This document shows positions 11,555-19,759 of a stretch of 39,732 nt of DNA, piece by piece. Position 1 is the stretch's first letter, and every line of letters begins with the position of its first letter. The position numbers and the translations under genes were made by a program. Origin of the DNA: an uncultured Lachnospiraceae bacterium (GTDB lineage: Bacteria; Bacillota; Clostridia; Lachnospirales; Lachnospiraceae); NCBI GenBank assembly GCA_947173945.1, contig CAMWGV010000024.1, positions 1 through 39,732 on the forward strand, given 5' to 3'. Under the pieces are notes generated by a model. The model saw nothing but the letters and a program-made list of their open reading frames with translations, was not told the origin of the DNA and searched no databases.

Positions 11555-12490
11555 TTAATTATTAAACAGTGGTGTAGATAAATATCTGTCTCCTGAATCA
11601 GGAAGCAATGTTACAATCGTCTTTCCTTTGTTTTCCGGTCTGTTTGCTAAAATCACTGCTGCCTTAAGTGCTGCACCTGAGGAAATGCCTACAAGAATTC
11701 CCTCGCTTACTGCAAATGCCCTTCCTTCTGAAAATGCATCCTCATTCTCAATTGTAATGATTTCATCATACACTTTTGTATTCAGCACATCTGGTACAAA
11801 GCCAGCTCCGATTCCCTGAATCTTATGTGCTCCAGGTGTTCCTGTTGATAATACCGGGCTTCCTGATGGCTCAACTGCTACTATTTTAATATTAGGATTT
11901 TTTTCTTTTAAATATTCTCCAACACCTGTAATCGTTCCACCTGTTCCTACACCCGCAACAAAAATGTCAACCTTTCCATCCGTCTGCTCCCAGATTTCAG
12001 GACCTGTTGTAGCCTTATGTACAGCAGGATTAGCAGGATTTACGAACTGACCTAATATAACAGCTCCCTCAATCTCGTTTTTCAGCTCCTCTGCCTTGGC
12101 AATAGCACCCTTCATTCCCTTTGCACCTTCGGTAAGAACCAGTTCTGCACCGTATGCTTTAAGCAAATTTCTTCTCTCAACACTCATGGTATCCGGCAAG
12201 GTCAGGATTGCCCTATAGCCCTTTGCCGCTGCAACTGCTGCAAGACCGATTCCTGTATTTCCACTGGTAGGCTCAATAATAGTTGCACCTTCCTTTAAGA
12301 TACCCTTCTTTTCTGCATCCTCAATCATTGCTAATGCAATACGATCCTTTACGGAACCTGCCGGATTTAAATATTCCAGCTTTGCAAGAATTGTAGCATC
12401 TCCTACTCCAGCCTTCTTCGTATATCCATTCAATTTCAGTATCGGAGTTCCTCCAATTAACTCCAGTGCACTTTCTTTAATCTGACTCAT
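11555..12490 (-). CDS. cysK: Cysteine synthase A (O-acetylserine sulfhydrylase)
   Basis: 311 residues. Makes cysteine from O-acetylserine and sulfide. PLP Lys48 is in [10 protein letters not shown], the phosphate/substrate loop is TSGNTG, and the glycine-rich GTGGTITG loop and the C-terminal SSGAA motif are present. The frame opens at ATG 12505, but that ATG lies in the ribosome site; GGAGGT is 7 nt before ATG 12490. Its own promoter (TTGACA-17-TATAAT) carries the 17-bp CCTAC...ATAGG box downstream of the start point. Substrate comes from CysE, encoded at 15647-16543. Confidence 0.96.
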
Positions 12491-12529
12491 AATAATTACC
12501 TCCATTATATAACCTGTTTTTTTATTCTT

Positions 12530-12690: not shown

Positions 12691-13512
12691 TTACTTAAAT
12701 GGTATAACAGCACCATCATATGTTTCATTTATATATTTTGTAATCTCATCTGATGTCAATACTTCAACTAATGCCTTAATTTTTTCATCATTTTCGTTGC
12801 CTTCCTTCACTCCAACTATGTTCACATAAGTTTTTGCTGCTTCCGAATCTGACTGCTCATATGCAATTGCATCCTTTCCAACTGAATATCCTGCTTCTAA
12901 AGCATAGTTACCATTTAATACAACAAAAGCTGTTTCGTCTACTACTCTTGCTACCTGTGCTGCCTCAAGCTCTACAATTTTAACATTATGCGGATTTTCT
13001 GCAATGTCATTTACAGTAGCAGTAAGTCCCACGCCTTCTTTCAAGGTAATAATTCCGTTATCCTGTAACAAAAGCAGTGCTCTTGCTTCATTTGTTGTAT
13101 CATTTGGAACTGCTATGGAATCACCATCTGCAATGTCACTCAAGCTTTTCTTTGTTCCCGGATAAATACCAAACGGTTCATAATGAATTTTACCTACATT
13201 TACAATGTGTGTACCCTGTTCCTCGTTAAAGCTATCAAGGTATGGAATATGCTGCATGTAATTTGCATCAAACTCCCCACTTTCTACCACAAGATTCGGT
13301 TGAACATAATCATTAAAAACTGTAATCTCCAATGTATATCCCTTTTCCTCTAACAGTGGTTTTGCCTGCTCCAAAATTTCTGCATGTGGGGTTGCTGAAG
13401 CTGCAATCTTGATTGTCTTGTCATCTTTGGATTTCCCGCATCCGGTAAGTGTGCCTACCAAAAGCACACCTATAAATGTAACTGCTAAAATTTTCTTTAC
13501 TATCTTTTTCAT
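12691..13512 (-). CDS. metQ: MetQ-like substrate-binding lipoprotein
   Basis: 273 residues, NlpA/MetQ family, the solute receptor of a methionine-type ABC importer. Signal peptide with lipobox LTGC, lipidated Cys25. The NlpA fold is visible throughout (IKIAASATPHAEIL, YMQHIPYLDSF, IAVPNDTTNEARALLLLQ). It is the last gene of metN-metI-metQ, 49 nt after metI. The ligand could be methionine, cystine or another sulfur amino acid; the Cys-rich leader peptide of the operon leaves this open. Confidence 0.94.
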   Translation of the reverse strand: MKKIVKKILAVTFIGVLLVGTLTGCGKSKDDKTIKIAASATPHAEILEQAKPLLEEKGYTLEITVFNDYVQPNLVVESGEFDANYMQHIPYLDSFNEEQGTHIVNVGKIHYEPFGIYPGTKKSLSDIADGDSIAVPNDTTNEARALLLLQDNGIITLKEGVGLTATVNDIAENPHNVKIVELEAAQVARVVDETAFVVLNGNYALEAGYSVGKDAIAYEQSDSEAAKTYVNIVGVKEGNENDEKIKALVEVLTSDEITKYINETYDGAVIPFK

Positions 13513-13561: not shown

Positions 13562-14221
13562 TTATCTGCGCTTATCCGTGCGATTAGCTATGAACATGCC
13601 AATGGTCTGAAATATTTGCACCAATAAGATCAGTAAAATAACTGTAGTAAACATGATATCCGTCTGATATCTGTAATATCCATAGCGGACTGCTATATCA
13701 CCAAGTCCGCCGCCTCCGACTGCACCTGCCATAGCCGAATATCCAAGAATGGTTCCAATTGCTATCGTCACTCCTGTAATCAGTGAAGTTTTTCCTTCTA
13801 CTAATAATACTTTTGTAATAATGGTAAAGGTTCCGGCTCCCATTGACTTTGCAGCCTCCACCACACCTGCATCTACCTCTTTCAGAGATGACTCTACCAT
13901 TCTGGCGATAAACGGAGTAGCTGCTGCCACAAGGGGAACAATTGTTGCCGTAGAGCCATAGCTTTGACCCAAAAGGAATCTGGTAAATGGTATCAGTAAA
14001 ATCAACAAAATCAGAAACGGAATACTACGTACCACATTTGCTATGATATCAAAAATTTTGTATATGACCTTATTCGGTTTTAAACCATCCTTATCTGTTA
14101 TACAGAGTAAAACTCCCATAGGAAGCCCCAGAACATAACCCAGTGCCGTTGATACCAAAGTCATATAAATGGTTTCCACAATTCCTTTTCCTATCATGGC
14201 TATTACCTCAGGTGTCCACAT
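13562..14221 (-). CDS. metI: MetI-like ABC importer permease
   Basis: 219 residues with about five hydrophobic helices and the EAA coupling loop EAAKSMGAGTFTIITKVLL. Pairs with MetN and MetQ at the membrane. Its ATG directly abuts the metN TAA, so the genes are translationally coupled. Confidence 0.94.
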   Translation of the reverse strand: MWTPEVIAMIGKGIVETIYMTLVSTALGYVLGLPMGVLLCITDKDGLKPNKVIYKIFDIIANVVRSIPFLILLILLIPFTRFLLGQSYGSTATIVPLVAAATPFIARMVESSLKEVDAGVVEAAKSMGAGTFTIITKVLLVEGKTSLITGVTIAIGTILGYSAMAGAVGGGGLGDIAVRYGYYRYQTDIMFTTVILLILLVQIFQTIGMFIANRTDKRR

Positions 14222-15259
14222 TTACACTTCCTCCCTTCCATCAAGCTCCTCTATTTCTATGTTTCTTTCCTTAAGATAAGCTTTCATTTCATCTTTCTTA
14301 TCAGATGTTCTTTGAAACTCTAATATCATTTCGCCCTTTGCCACACCGGCTACATTTTTTGTAGCTGCTTTCAGTATGTTTACCGGCTCGTTAAATTTGA
14401 GTATCATATTTGCAATCACAGGCTCAAATGCAGAATTCTCTGAATATATAATTCGTAATTTACTTCCACCTGTAATATCATTTACTTCCTGAATTACCTG
14501 TTTCTCCGCCTGTGCATCTACATCCGTACGAAGCAGTTCCCTTGCAACCTCAGACTTCGGATGGTTAAAAATATCAAGTGTACTGCCTGCTTCAACAATC
14601 TGTCCTTCCTTCATAATGGCAACCTTGTTACATATCTGCCGTACAACTGACATCTGATGTGTAATCACGACAATTGTAATTCCCAGTTCACGATTAATAT
14701 TTTTCAAAAGCTCTAATATAGATGAGGTTGTCTGCGGATCCAATGCACTTGTCGCTTCATCACAAAGTAAAATCTTTGGTTCGCTGGCAAGTGCCCTTGC
14801 TATGGCAACCCTCTGCTTCTGCCCACCGGAAAGTTGTGAGGGAAAGGCTTTTGCTTTATCTGGCATTCCCACCTTTTCCAGAAGCTTTACCGCTCTTTTT
14901 TCTGCATCCTTTTTGGATACTCCCTGAATCAATAACGGAAAACAGATGTTGTCAATGACATTTTTTTGCATCAGCAAATTAAAATGCTGAAATATCATTC
15001 CTACCTTTTCCCGTTTTTTTCTGAGTTCCCTGTCTGACAAACCGGAAAGCTCTTCTCCTTGCAGCTTTACCACTCCCTCTGAAGGAATTTCCAAGTAATT
15101 CATACATCGTACCAATGTACTTTTCCCTGCGCCAGACATACCGATAATTCCATAAATGTCTCCTGTTTCTATCGATAAACTCACATCATTCAATGCCTGT
15201 ACATGTCCTTCCTTTGTCTCAAAGGTTTTATTAATATGTAAAAGCTCTATCTCCGACAT
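14222..15259 (-). CDS. metN: MetN-like ABC importer ATPase
   Basis: 345 residues. Walker A GMSGAGKST, signature LSGGQKQR and Walker B ILLCDEATSALD are followed by a C-terminal NIL (ACT-like) domain over the last about 90 residues. In E. coli MetN this domain binds methionine and causes transinhibition. The frame extends to TTG 15292, but AGAGAGGTG just before ATG 15259 fixes the start. It is the first structural gene after a leader with a Cys/Met-rich peptide and a terminator at 15341-15374. Confidence 0.95.
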   Translation of the reverse strand: MSEIELLHINKTFETKEGHVQALNDVSLSIETGDIYGIIGMSGAGKSTLVRCMNYLEIPSEGVVKLQGEELSGLSDRELRKKREKVGMIFQHFNLLMQKNVIDNICFPLLIQGVSKKDAEKRAVKLLEKVGMPDKAKAFPSQLSGGQKQRVAIARALASEPKILLCDEATSALDPQTTSSILELLKNINRELGITIVVITHQMSVVRQICNKVAIMKEGQIVEAGSTLDIFNHPKSEVARELLRTDVDAQAEKQVIQEVNDITGGSKLRIIYSENSAFEPVIANMILKFNEPVNILKAATKNVAGVAKGEMILEFQRTSDKKDEMKAYLKERNIEIEELDGREEV

Positions 15260-15340: not shown

Positions 15341-15374
15341 AAAAAAGTGGCTGTCATATACACATGACAACCAC
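15341..15374 (-). terminator. Attenuator terminator in the metNIQ leader
   Basis: Minus-strand stem 15364-15374 with 15347-15357 (11 bp, one U-G pair), followed by six U residues (15341-15346). It lies between leader peptide and metN. An overlapping alternative stem, 15386-15395 with 15367-15375 (one bulge), would block it and includes the leader stop codon. Confidence 0.85.
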
Positions 15375-15391
15375 ACATTCAGCTCTGTCGG

Positions 15392-15487
15392 TTATGTACT
15401 TCGTGCATACGAAAAGAAAACTGTATTCATATTTTCAGTCTTGCAGCAACACATATACATTGTCATTAATAAATTCATTCTTCTCAT
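15392..15487 (-). CDS. Cys/Met-rich leader peptide of the metNIQ operon
   Basis: A 31-codon ORF with AAGGAG 7 nt before ATG 15487. It starts MRRMNLLMTMYMCCCK: three consecutive Cys codons at 13-15, preceded by Met codons at 4, 8, 10 and 12 (plus Met20). The TAA (15392-15394) falls inside the 5' arm of the antiterminator stem. Stalling at the Cys/Met codons would leave this arm free, so the antiterminator forms and metNIQ is transcribed. Completing translation would cover the arm and let the terminator form. The layout is seen; the mechanism is inferred from classical trp/his-type attenuators. Confidence 0.8.
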   Translation of the reverse strand: MRRMNLLMTMYMCCCKTENMNTVFFSYARST

Positions 15488-15507
15488 ACGCCGTCTCCTT
15501 CCTTTTT

Positions 15508-15579
15508 CCTATTTATTCTATGGGTTTTATATGTTTTAATTATATTGTGTATTGTATTATCACTTTCTTAAACTGTCAA
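15508..15579 (-). promoter_or_regulatory. metNIQ promoter and Rrf2-type operator box
   Basis: TTGACA (15574-15579), 17-bp spacer, TACAAT (15551-15556). The 17-bp box CCTATTTATTCTATGGG (15508-15524) lies about 20-36 nt after the expected start, the same placement as in cysK. Confidence 0.75.
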
Positions 15580-15646: not shown

Positions 15647-16543
15647 TTAATTTTTAAATTGAAGTTCCTGTGCCTTTATGCTTACCTTTGTATCTTTACC
15701 TATTGATTTTGTAATAAAAGCATTGCCACCCACTACGACATTTTCTTCAATGACTGTATCACCACCTAGGATTGATGCACCAGAGTAAATTGTAACATTA
15801 TTCCCTATAGTTGGGTGTCGTTTTACTCCCTTAAGCTTCTGCCCGCCCTTTGTCGATAATCCGCCTAATGTTACCCCTTGGTATACTTTGACATGTTCTC
15901 CGATTACAGTGGTTTCCCCAATAACAATTCCCGTACCATGATCCATAAAAAAATATTTTCCAATCGTTGCACCAGGATGAATGTCAATTCCTGTAACACT
16001 ATGTGCATGCTCCGTCATAATTCTTGGTATTACTGGCACACCAAGCAGTACCAACTCGTGGGCAACTCTGTAAACCGAAATGGCATACAGTCCCGGATAT
16101 GACAGAATAACCTCATCCTTGCTTTCTGCTGCTGGATCGCCTTCATATGCCGCCTGAATATCCGTATCCAGATAAGACCTGATTTGCGGTATTTTTTCCA
16201 TAAAATCAAACGTCATATTCTGTGCTTTTTCCTCTAGCTCATTGTCTGAACCTTCCGAATATGTCCCACAATATTTCAGAACAAGCATAATCTGCTTCTT
16301 CAAATGGAATATAATATCTTCAATAGTGGCTGCCATATTATTTCTCAGGCTGTAAATTTTATAAACCTTATCGCTGTAATATCCCGGATAAAGTATTTTC
16401 AGCAGCTTCTCGACAATATCAATAATTGCCTTTTTGTCCGGCTGGTTATATAAATCTGTTTTATTAATCACCCTGTCATCGTTATAGTCATCCAGCATTA
16501 ACCGGACAATGCTTTCCACCCTGTCTTCATTTAATTTTCTCAT
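15647..16543 (-). CDS. cysE: Serine O-acetyltransferase
   Basis: 298 residues. Acetylates serine with acetyl-CoA to give O-acetylserine for CysK. A helical N-terminal half of about 180 residues is followed by the left-handed beta-helix hexapeptide domain (HPGATIGKYFFMDHGTGIVIGE, with catalytic Asp/His in MDHG, and VYQGVTLGG). This is the longer form, unlike the about 230-residue Bacillus enzyme. The C-terminus ends LQFKN; it lacks the classic terminal Ile that CysE uses to dock CysK, so complex formation is uncertain. Start overlaps the mnmA stop by 4 nt (ATGA). Confidence 0.94.
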   Translation of the reverse strand: MRKLNEDRVESIVRLMLDDYNDDRVINKTDLYNQPDKKAIIDIVEKLLKILYPGYYSDKVYKIYSLRNNMAATIEDIIFHLKKQIMLVLKYCGTYSEGSDNELEEKAQNMTFDFMEKIPQIRSYLDTDIQAAYEGDPAAESKDEVILSYPGLYAISVYRVAHELVLLGVPVIPRIMTEHAHSVTGIDIHPGATIGKYFFMDHGTGIVIGETTVIGEHVKVYQGVTLGGLSTKGGQKLKGVKRHPTIGNNVTIYSGASILGGDTVIEENVVVGGNAFITKSIGKDTKVSIKAQELQFKN

Positions 16544-17719: not shown

Positions 17720-18490
17720 TTATAAATTTGCAAAATCCAAAAACAATAACCGCATTTTCTCCTCTGTTTCAAAAAATTCATTTTTATGGTCCGTCCCTGT
17801 GTACACCTGCTTTCCATCCCTATAGGCAATCAGTGTATTCATGGGCACATTTTCCCATACTTTATGATTGAGCGGTTTGGTAGATATTACAACGGTATCT
17901 CCATTTTTATATGTATATAAACTATTTTGATAATTTGTATGTACATACATCAATTCACCATCAAATAAAAGAAGATTCACCTTATTTTCCGGTGATATTT
18001 CACACATAATTGTATCTATTAATTCAAACCTCTCCTGCTCTGACAACTCTTTTTTCTTTTCCAGCTCTGAATTTATCCGACTTATAATGTATGACAAAAT
18101 TCTTTCACTATCCGTTTGCCCCTGCTGACTGTATGCAAAAGGATTGAGCAAATCACAGTCAAAAATTGTTCCATTATGTGCCAATGTCCATGTTCTGTTA
18201 CTGCAATCCCTCATTACAAAAGGATGCGTATTTTCATAATTAAGATTACCTCTCGTAGCAAGTCGTATATGTGCAATCATTTTATCCGCTTCCACTTTAA
18301 ATTGTAATCTTTGCTTCAGATAAGAACTTTTATGCGATGCTTCCGGTTGTTTTTCCAGAGATACTGCATTACCATAAAAAAACGCCATTCCCCATCCGTT
18401 TGGATGTTCTATGCCGTGTGAGAAAAATTCCCAAAGCAGTTCATTTAATTCAAGCTTACTGCTGGAGGTTACACCAAATAATTCACACAT
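17720..18490 (-). CDS. Class II glutamine amidotransferase-like hydrolase
   Basis: 256 residues, Ntn-hydrolase of the GATase_4/YafJ type. Cys2 after the initiator Met is the nucleophile (MCELFGV); further landmarks are NGWGMAF, IAHIRLATRG, THPF and LAHNGTI. No synthase domain is attached. Its ATG follows the gshA TAA without a gap and uses a ribosome site inside gshA. EgtC of ergothioneine synthesis belongs to this broad group and removes gamma-glutamyl from a gamma-Glu-Cys conjugate, so a gamma-glutamyl hydrolase role is plausible. That function is inference. Confidence 0.85.
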   Translation of the reverse strand: MCELFGVTSSSKLELNELLWEFFSHGIEHPNGWGMAFFYGNAVSLEKQPEASHKSSYLKQRLQFKVEADKMIAHIRLATRGNLNYENTHPFVMRDCSNRTWTLAHNGTIFDCDLLNPFAYSQQGQTDSERILSYIISRINSELEKKKELSEQERFELIDTIMCEISPENKVNLLLFDGELMYVHTNYQNSLYTYKNGDTVVISTKPLNHKVWENVPMNTLIAYRDGKQVYTGTDHKNEFFETEEKMRLLFLDFANL

Positions 18491-19759
18491 TTATCCTCCC
18501 TGCCTTTCCTTTACAAGCTCAAGCCCCTTTTTTACAAATCCGCTTCCGAATTGTTTTCTGATTTTCCACGCATACCGATTGTCTGCATCTATAAATTTTT
18601 CATATTCGAACTGGAGAATTTCATCAACATCGAATGAAAGTCCACTATAAAATTCTTTCATCATTTCAATTACTTTTAATGCTGCATGTGCTACAGAATA
18701 TGTTTCTCCATTCGGTGTCAATATGTTGACTGTCTTTAAATCATAGCGGGCTGCATTTTTAAAATTCTGCACTGCCTGAATCTGATCTTTCTCACTGAAT
18801 GGCTGCATTGGTGTCGATGCAAGCCAAGCCATTAAAAGCTGTGCAAAGACGACATCCCTTTCATCTACCCCGGCACTTACAAGAGGATTTAAATCGAACA
18901 TACGCAGCTCTATATGATTAATTCCTTTTCTGCATAGCGACTCTAAATTATTTTCTCCTTCCGGCTTCAACCGTATTGGATAATACAACTCTGATGCTGC
19001 CTTTAACAGCCCTATATCCACATACTTTCGTATACTGTCTGCATATGAAGAAATATTATTATAATCGAGAATAGGTGCAAACTCATTCCAATATCCCATT
19101 TCACCGCATCTGACAGATGCCATTCCCGTAAACACATCCTGATTGTAAATGCCTTTCTCTACAAATGAACTGTCTAGAATCGGGCTTGCTGCAGTCACCG
19201 CAACAAGCAGCCAGCCATATACAACCATTTTCTGTGCAATTTCCAGGTAAAACCGATTTTTGTACTCCTGATAATCTGTCTCCTCCTGTAGCTCGAAGTT
19301 GGTCCTTAGCAACTCCTCAGAAAACGAATAGTTGACATGAATGCCGGAAAAAGTCATTTTATACCGTCCATATTTGTCAGATAAATATTCCCTATATGCT
19401 GTTTTTGATACCTCTACTCCTTCAAAAACAGCAACCGGTATGTCACTTTCATTCTGAATATAAGGCGGATTGGAAAACAACCACAAATATTCTCTATCCG
19501 GCAGACTTTCTAACCTTTCATAGATACGCTTGTTGTGAAATTCCAATTCTTCAATTGCTTCTTTTGCGCTGGTATGTACTGATGTATTAATCTCCGTCTG
19601 GTTTTCACAAAAATCCTTTACAATATGCTCATCATCTGTAAACGGATGAGGCGAATGGGATAATGTGCCGTCTTGCAAAATCCTTAAGCTTTCCTTCTCC
19701 AACCCAAAATTTCCTTCTAAGATGCGTTTTTTTACAGCATCATTTTCAATGTTTAGCAT
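18491..19759 (-). CDS. gshA: Glutamate-cysteine ligase
   Basis: 422 residues. Joins glutamate and cysteine to gamma-glutamylcysteine with ATP. GLEKESLRI near 19-27 and CENQTEI at 51-57 are type I GshA signatures. It is shorter than E. coli GshA (about 518), and no gshB or GshF-type ATP-grasp domain is present in the window, so glutathione itself may not be the product. It lies 106 nt after the C-S lyase gene and is coupled to a class II amidotransferase. The gap ahead of it shows no terminator, so it is probably part of the transsulfuration operon. Confidence 0.92.
   Translation of the reverse strand: MLNIENDAVKKRILEGNFGLEKESLRILQDGTLSHSPHPFTDDEHIVKDFCENQTEINTSVHTSAKEAIEELEFHNKRIYERLESLPDREYLWLFSNPPYIQNESDIPVAVFEGVEVSKTAYREYLSDKYGRYKMTFSGIHVNYSFSEELLRTNFELQEETDYQEYKNRFYLEIAQKMVVYGWLLVAVTAASPILDSSFVEKGIYNQDVFTGMASVRCGEMGYWNEFAPILDYNNISSYADSIRKYVDIGLLKAASELYYPIRLKPEGENNLESLCRKGINHIELRMFDLNPLVSAGVDERDVVFAQLLMAWLASTPMQPFSEKDQIQAVQNFKNAARYDLKTVNILTPNGETYSVAHAALKVIEMMKEFYSGLSFDVDEILQFEYEKFIDADNRYAWKIRKQFGSGFVKKGLELVKERQGG

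Follow-up and report, generated by a model that had tools for sequence, protein, structure and literature searches.

Gene organization of the window and the metNIQ leader

The window examined here is the whole stretch of DNA that was analyzed, 39,732 nucleotides from an uncultured Lachnospiraceae bacterium. It contains the gene order mnmA, a cysE-like gene, a leader, metN, metI, metQ, and cysK, and all features located below lie on its minus strand. The cysE-like serine acetyltransferase gene (15647..16543) is upstream of the leader, which is followed by metN (methionine ABC transporter ATPase, 14222..15259), metI (permease, 13562..14221), metQ (substrate-binding lipoprotein, 12691..13512), and cysK (cysteine synthase, 11555..12505). 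NCBIfam cut-offs were passed by MetI (NF008049, 217.8 bits; cut-off, 212), CysK (TIGR01139, 448.5 bits; cut-off, 350.95), and MnmA; MetN (TIGR02314, 362 bits; cut-off, 499.7), MetQ (NF008285, 196.9 bits; cut-off, 374), and CysE (TIGR01172, 164.1 bits; cut-off, 210.65) are named from best matches below cut-off. A promoter-like TTGACA-17-TATAAT sequence at 12602-12574 lies ahead of cysK, which may have its own promoter there. Farther upstream of mnmA and cysE, positions 17723-19759 hold a GshA-like gene (422 aa) and then a glutamine amidotransferase gene with a weak EgtC match. The match of the GshA-like protein to bifunctional GshAB models is confined to their first part and is below cut-off, and the two genes possibly represent an uncommon thiol pathway.

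The leader contains a 31-codon open reading frame (ORF), MRRMNLLMTMYMCCCKTENMNTVFFSYARST (15392..15487), identified from the sequence, its congeners, and a Met/Cys density test. A ribosome-binding site, AAGGAG (15495..15500), lies 7 nt 5' of its ATG at 15487. Met occupies codons 4, 8, 10, 12, and 20 and Cys codons 13 to 15, and the putative regulatory codons 8 to 15 (M T M Y M C C C; 15443..15466) comprise six Met/Cys in eight. An earlier, sequence-only reading of this DNA had described the ribosome site, the 31-codon ORF, and the Met codons 4, 8, 10, and 12 before Cys 13 to 15, and all were found where it had placed them. The outer antiterminator helix, the start-region helix, the promoter-like site, and the mnmA-cysE and cysK neighbors described here go beyond that reading.

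A sigma-70-like promoter for the metNIQ transcript, TTGACA-17-TACAAT (15551..15579; consensus scan, 11/12 matches), is predicted ahead of the leader, with its -10 element ending 64 nt before the leader ATG. The region holds 39 promoter-like sites compared with 35.6 expected from shuffles, making this one weak evidence alone, yet its position is good, and on the strength of it the metNIQ unit probably has its own transcript. Together with the ribosome-binding site, the spacing from the predicted -10 element speaks against a leaderless start, that is, a transcript beginning at the leader start codon.

Near the promoter there is also an ATAGGAA(A)- or TAGGAAA-like element (15520-15501). Similar stretches, noted by eye, lie upstream of metN at six relatives' loci (L113, L114, L119, L136, L142, and L187), and the element occurs before metN both with and without a leader. 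We take it to resemble a CymR-type operator, and it may provide an extra transcriptional layer.

Predicted competing RNA structures in the window leader

The leader ORF is followed, as the sequence-only reading had proposed, by a predicted intrinsic terminator. This is a 12-pair stem-loop (15347..15374; -16.1 kcal/mol) with the U-tract TTTTTT (15341..15346) ending about 80 nt before metN. An antiterminator could form from two 5' arms, the inner (15386..15395) including the leader stop codon and pairing with 15375-15367, and the outer (15403..15411) pairing with 15363-15355. The start-codon region (15483..15494) provides a candidate protector 5' arm that can pair with 15412-15401.

These structures differ in how far they stand out in the window. 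The antiterminator fold is less stable than the terminator fold (-19.8 versus -22.9) and was not above shuffles (z +0.31, p 0.57; pair number, p 0.28), nor was the fold of the whole stretch 15440-15355 (z -0.90). The inner stem had been proposed before as the alternative to the terminator; it is present and is kept in relatives, but it does not stand above shuffles in the window alone, and support for the antiterminator comes from relatives. The protector duplex was estimated at -11.9 kcal/mol (p 0.02 versus shuffles), and its helix is present in the MFE structure of the whole window leader.

Rfam models found no element in the window, in keeping with the earlier view that neither an S-box nor a T-box is present. 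S-box and T-box control of this operon were rejected on the same ground.

Conservation of the leader in four congeners

A search with the leader DNA over 99 genomes (its own included) gave matches in 29, of which the window and four congeners (G036, G028, G014, and G001, with loci L003 to L006, respectively) were counted; the matches not counted were short, with E 1.8e-5 or weaker. The four congeners owe their selection to similarity with the leader and so do not count as independent of it. All four keep the ribosome-binding site, the YMCCC run, and the hairpin with six U. Codons 8 to 15 read MTMYMCCC in L004 to L006 and MPIYMCCC in L003, and there is a synonymous difference at the second Cys codon, which is TGC in the window and L003 and TGT in L004 to L006. 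The CCC run and Met codons 8 and 12 are kept in 4/4 congeners; Met codons 10 and 20 are lost in L003 and codons 4 and 20 in L004 to L006. An alignment of relatives' metN leaders had been suggested as a check of the sequence-only reading, and in these congeners the CCC run, the ribosome site, and both stems are kept.

Four distinct sequences could be aligned (alignment A2), L005 being left out as identical to L004 there. The terminator was paired in 100% of cells, with two pairs changed on both sides, and the antiterminator in 94.4% of cells compared with at most 57.4% when its arms were slid, with one compensatory pair. This change, A45-U73 in the window and L003 to G45-C73 in L004 and L006, lies in the inner antiterminator stem, and column 73 covaries with its partners in both structures (A45-U73-A87 in the window, G45-C73-G87 in L004 and L006). 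However, it is probably one evolutionary event, and column shuffles reached the covariation score in 46/500 cases for the terminator and 90/500 for the antiterminator; the covariation at column 73 is thus suggestive only. The protector pairing had p <=0.007 in the four congeners. Other windows of the same leader paired as well as the start region did in 0% of cases for the window and L003 and in 16 to 34% for L004 to L006. Within the window's genus, an upstream ORF (uORF) lies directly upstream of metN at 5/20 loci (2/20 not assessable).

A family of Met/Cys-dense leaders across Lachnospiraceae

We searched 299 Lachnospiraceae genomes for MetN, obtained 126 with E <=1e-90, and read 130/138 of the resulting metN locus rows (L112 to L241), which together with the four congeners gave 134 loci. 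A uORF was selected if it lay within 450 nt upstream of metN, was led by a ribosome-binding site, had at most 62 codons, and in some stretch of 8 codons contained 4 or more for Met or Cys. This rule selected 41/134 loci, compared with 0/134 reverse complements and a mean of 2.0 in shuffles. At a threshold of at least 5, 39 loci qualified (reverse complements, 0; shuffles, 0.15), and at 6, the score of the window ORF, 24/134 did so (reverse complements, 0/134; none in 20 shuffles of each). A threshold of 3 selected 46 loci, with 3 among reverse complements and 15.3 among shuffles. Excluding the four congeners, 37/130 loci carried such a leader; they come from 35 genomes, no two of which belong to the same genus. 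The figure of 37/130 is a lower bound, as the scan covers the stretch directly before metN and misses leaders before an earlier operon gene (L319/L239). The other 93/134 metN loci have no Met/Cys-dense ORF directly upstream.

The selected leaders are 22 to 59 residues long and drift in sequence outside Met/Cys. One contains MNMMMCCC (MQMNMCMMNDMCMMMC); others include MNTLSHPGFTSMNMMMCCCETMCMCNMCFTAF (L134), MNQQTTMQMNMCMMNDMCMMMCRMLMCHKN... (L169), and MRSYMRAYNQMMCCCC... (L213). Met accounts for 20.6% and Cys for 9.5% of their 1435 codons, with every other residue at 7.4% or less. Met was found in frame at 295/1435 codons, versus 25/1394 and 13/1394 out of frame, and Cys at 136/1435, versus 17/1099 and 49/1394; as Met/Cys density was the selection criterion for these ORFs, the shuffles provide a cleaner control. 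Both Cys codons are used (64 UGU, 72 UGC). Two genomes carry two metN paralogs, each with a different Met/Cys leader (L216/L240 in G193, L202/L238 in G246). Elements of the same predicted design, mostly richer in Met, precede metN in many Lachnospiraceae, and the window leader with its CCC run is among the more cysteine-weighted forms, which would fit its neighbors cysE and cysK.

The leaders can be followed some way beyond this set. Among 80 named metN loci, 5 passed the uORF rule (L032, L059, L066, L081, and L102); by judgement, the leaders on the Gemmiger (L032) and Agathobaculum (L059) contigs are plausible and the other three doubted. A class-level search in other families, run without a shuffle control, yielded 2/25 new loci that qualify (L297 and L307). 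Outside Lachnospiraceae, L297 has an extremely Met-rich leader (MRVTMRMSVYMLMMSMMMSMLMCMYMCFRAQ...), 279 to 129 nt before metN, with a weak ribosome site. A subfamily profile (A1) run against the 299 genomes returned only its own 18 member leaders below E 1e-7, with further weak matches from E 0.008 up; the window's leader is not among its matches, and A1 therefore says little on other target genes.

RNA anatomy of the family

A terminator follows the ORF in 35/41 leaders by rule, with stabilities of at least -11 kcal/mol in 34 and a weak stem in one (L177, -3.6 kcal/mol), and by eye in 5 of the other 6. In the largest subfamily, MQMNM, a conserved segment located at the stop codon or immediately after it, CUGUAUGGAUUGUGAU, pairs with GUCGCAGGUCUGUGCA, which forms the terminator 5' arm and loop. 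Alignment A3 comprised 15/41 leaders picked by eye for a common arm and trimmed to start there, and its values lean towards structure: 6/12 terminator pairs were changed on both sides (1/500 shuffles as high), and the antiterminator was paired in 90.8% of cells versus at most 55.2% when slid. Antiterminator covariation in A3 was not above column shuffles (1 pair versus a mean of 1.2); conservation and G-U exchange, more than covariation, account for most of the pairing. Of the 38 members with a terminator (the 35/41 plus L032, L059, and L102), only 6 by energy and 10 by pair number passed p 0.05 for the antiterminator against their individual shuffles (mean z -0.84). The antiterminator was less stable than the terminator in 35/37, so the switch must be kinetic, with the antiterminator forming first.

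We also asked where a ribosome would sit, assuming coverage of 9 nt past the A-site codon. A stall at the clustered Met/Cys codons leaves the antiterminator arm free at 336/359 codons. When the ribosome is at the stop codon, it reaches the arm in 31/37 leaders; in the other 6/37, the arm starts just past the assumed ribosome edge. Pairing of the start region with the antiterminator arm had p <=0.05 in 14/37 (mean z -1.46), the window and its four congeners among them, and other windows of the same leader paired with the arm at least as well in a mean of 26% of cases over the 37 leaders.

Other elements before metN and leaders before two-domain binding proteins

The Rfam scan covered 121 loci, the window and 120 relatives, with L129 to L141 (13 loci) left out. 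No SAM riboswitch was found in these at the gathering threshold. A T-box lies directly before metN at two of the 120 relatives (L186, 445-711; L191, 282-540, minus strand), and in both the position that we take to be the specifier reads AUG. It therefore seems that the same gene has exchanged one Met-tRNA sensor for another among relatives. Elsewhere in the relatives' upstream stretches, we noted a T-box about 1 kb upstream of metN (L209, 1194-1443), a TPP riboswitch (L218, 167-267), and a RAGATH-18 RNA (L237, 253-314). The scanned leaders matched no Rfam model of the leader-attenuator kind and the window ORF matched no NCBIfam model; such elements are thus probably missed in annotation.

To look for a wider regulon, we used as query the binding protein of L062, which combines two domains, one of family 3 (PF00497) and one of MetQ type (PF03180). 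Leaders were found at the two-domain relatives L319, L076, and L062, and none at the two-domain relative L320 or at L335, which was matched in part. Of 18 relatives that carry the first domain alone, none showed a leader in the 800 nt examined when at least 3 Met/Cys in 8 were required, and a general amino-acid-transporter or sulfur regulon was rejected on this count (0/18 leaders at binding-protein operons without the MetQ half). The leaders before two-domain operons include MFEKNSYAAQYCCCRMC... (L076) and, in the window's own genus, MRTQICTMSCMCMCGCM... (L319). The two domains, assigned in L062 (555-2213) and L076 (778-2412), are naturally fused in one polypeptide there and in L319; metN adjoins the fusion gene in all three, and metI follows in L062. 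This last locus has two tandem leader ORFs (50-187 and 305-373), the first with Met/Cys and a hairpin plus U-tract, the second with Cys (MRTETIHLNYNTRMCCGRRCCR) and without an obvious terminator. A cystine (TcyA) type for the first domain of L062 was considered and dropped, as just a family-3 amino-acid-binding domain is seen.

Proposed mechanism and alternative explanations

The features observed in the sequence are the ORF, its codon bias, the terminator, their conservation, and a set of compatible pairings. Their combination very probably represents a ribosome-mediated, trp-type transcription attenuator through which metNIQ (perhaps with cysK) is controlled by the charging of both tRNA-Cys and tRNA-Met. 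From these features we infer that ribosomes stall, which way the operon responds, and which amino acids are sensed. When Cys and Met are plentiful, the ribosome would pass the Met/Cys codons and reach the stop codon (15394-15392), where it would cover the antiterminator 5' arm and allow the terminator to end transcription. When Cys-tRNA or Met-tRNA is short, it would stall at codons 8 to 15, leaving arms 15411-15403 and 15395-15386 free to pair with 15375-15355; the terminator would not form, and metNIQ would be made. If no ribosome started, the start-codon region could pair with the antiterminator arm and favor the terminator, a pairing that, by analogy, sits where the trp protector does.

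The trp-type logic put forward by the sequence-only reading, tuned to cysteine and perhaps methionine, is supported in outline, and for the family the reservation about methionine falls away in view of the Met and Cys frequencies (20.6% vs 9.5%). For the window itself, the same attenuator might sense cysteine only, with the Met codons incidental or serving to tune initiation or spacing; we regard this as possible and yet distinctly the less likely reading. It would account for the three consecutive Cys codons, for the adjoining cysE and cysK, and for the way CCC with Met 8 and 12 outlasts other Met codons in the congeners, but it sits poorly with the dominance of Met in the family leaders, with a Met transporter as the downstream gene product, and with the two relatives whose metN is preceded by a T-box with AUG at the presumed specifier.

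Alternatively, a repressor near the promoter, acting at a ATAGGAAA-like element, could be the main control of metNIQ, with the leader minor. The link of this element to CymR is our presumption. The stretches seen by eye before leaderless metN and at 15520-15501 in the window lend this idea some weight, but it would leave the codon bias, the terminator, and the arms unexplained, and both controls can coexist; we consider it improbable as the main control.

Slightly more improbable still is action of the leader through translation, Rho, or mRNA decay instead of an intrinsic terminator, as has been proposed for actinobacterial poly-Cys leaders. Conserved terminators are absent from actinobacterial Cys leaders as described in passages of PMC1262725, and the gap of about 80 nt between the U-tract and metN leaves room for translational coupling. 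Against this, a hairpin and U-tract follow the ORF in 35/41 leaders by rule and covary in the 15 aligned members. There is very little to recommend a functional Met/Cys-rich peptide with a terminator belonging to the upstream gene: Met/Cys-rich peptides can bind Cu(I), but the lengths of 22 to 59 residues, the drift outside Met/Cys, and a stop region that doubles as conserved RNA pairing all tell against it, and a metal-binding peptide was rejected for lack of conservation outside Met/Cys.

Returning to the two-input attenuator, methionine is a special case, as the same amino acid starts every protein, and initiation of a Met-coded leader becomes a testable question. Met shortage should also weaken initiation, blunting a Met sensor of such design. 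Under extreme Met starvation the response may therefore be weak, as initiation would slow and the operon would be closed by the start-region pairing. On the broadest view, one that we hold with about equal belief and doubt, the leaders are two-input attenuators of a class widespread in Clostridia: a single leader responds to both sulfur amino acids, and methionine uptake (perhaps also cystine uptake in two-domain operons) opens when either Met-tRNA or Cys-tRNA is short. Slow elongation (open) would be told apart from absent initiation (closed) by a start-codon protector, and in these bacteria the element would stand in for the T-box(Met) or SAM riboswitches found elsewhere. If true, the start-codon protector would let a Met sensor work even though Met starts the leader. 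Of the 126 Lachnospiraceae genomes with a close metN, at least 35 appear to use leader-peptide attenuation for this methionine-uptake operon.

Comparison with known systems

The T-boxes before metN in L186 and L191 share with the leader family the gene and the likely signal, tRNA-Met charging, but differ in binding tRNA directly and in having no leader peptide. Cys leader peptides of actinobacteria are reportedly the subject of work by Canestrari in 2020. In the sections of PMC1262725 that describe them, these carry Cys-codon runs and no conserved terminators. They resemble the window leader in placing a Cys-codon run in a uORF before sulfur genes and, on that description, differ in the lack of a conserved terminator, in the genes controlled, and in Cys runs without Met codons. 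The earlier view that Cys-run attenuation is mainly actinobacterial needs widening, as PMC8632094, in its account of the uORFC-8-2 motif before cysS in Rhodobacterales, proposes ribosome-mediated attenuation from tandem Cys codons and a terminator. The motif shares these two features with the window family, whereas, as presented there, it involves Cys only, a tRNA synthetase gene, and alphaproteobacteria. His leaders in bacilli are also in print: a 2010 survey gives, in its statement on the subject, its own bacilli hisS cases as the only leader-peptide attenuation outside Proteobacteria and Actinobacteria (PMC2965389).

The nearest precedent, judged from the account in PMC8079986, is metL of Streptomyces lividans TK24 (MSTTSDRTPATEATTTPGARCMCRRMCAF), a proposed Met leader before metNIQ, listed there as methionine dependent, leaderless, and without a typical Rho-independent terminator. 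Both are short ORFs before metNIQ, and the metL end, CMCRRMC, also mixes Cys and Met, although the passages on metL name methionines and threonines alone for the leader. As described there, metL is one actinobacterial case, leaderless and with no typical terminator, whereas the Lachnospiraceae leaders are led by a ribosome-binding site, have a terminator, and occur in many genera. A Met leader before metNIQ had thus already been proposed in Streptomyces (PMC8079986), but the open-licence PMC papers searched, and Rfam, gave no Clostridial family that has the complete attenuator anatomy and codes for Met and Cys together. The kind of attenuator is known, and the Lachnospiraceae family appears undescribed.

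That kind is represented by the trp/his/ilv-type ribosome-mediated attenuators of Proteobacteria, with a translated leader, pathway codons, a terminator, an antiterminator, and a protector. As far as the scheme of trp-type attenuation is laid out in PMC1183508, the window family follows it, with a translated leader carrying pathway codons, a terminator, a competing antiterminator, and a candidate protector that would act if the leader is untranslated. Unlike the trp/his/ilv type, the window family codes Met and Cys, controls uptake genes, and is found in Lachnospiraceae, and its predicted protector includes or abuts the start codon.
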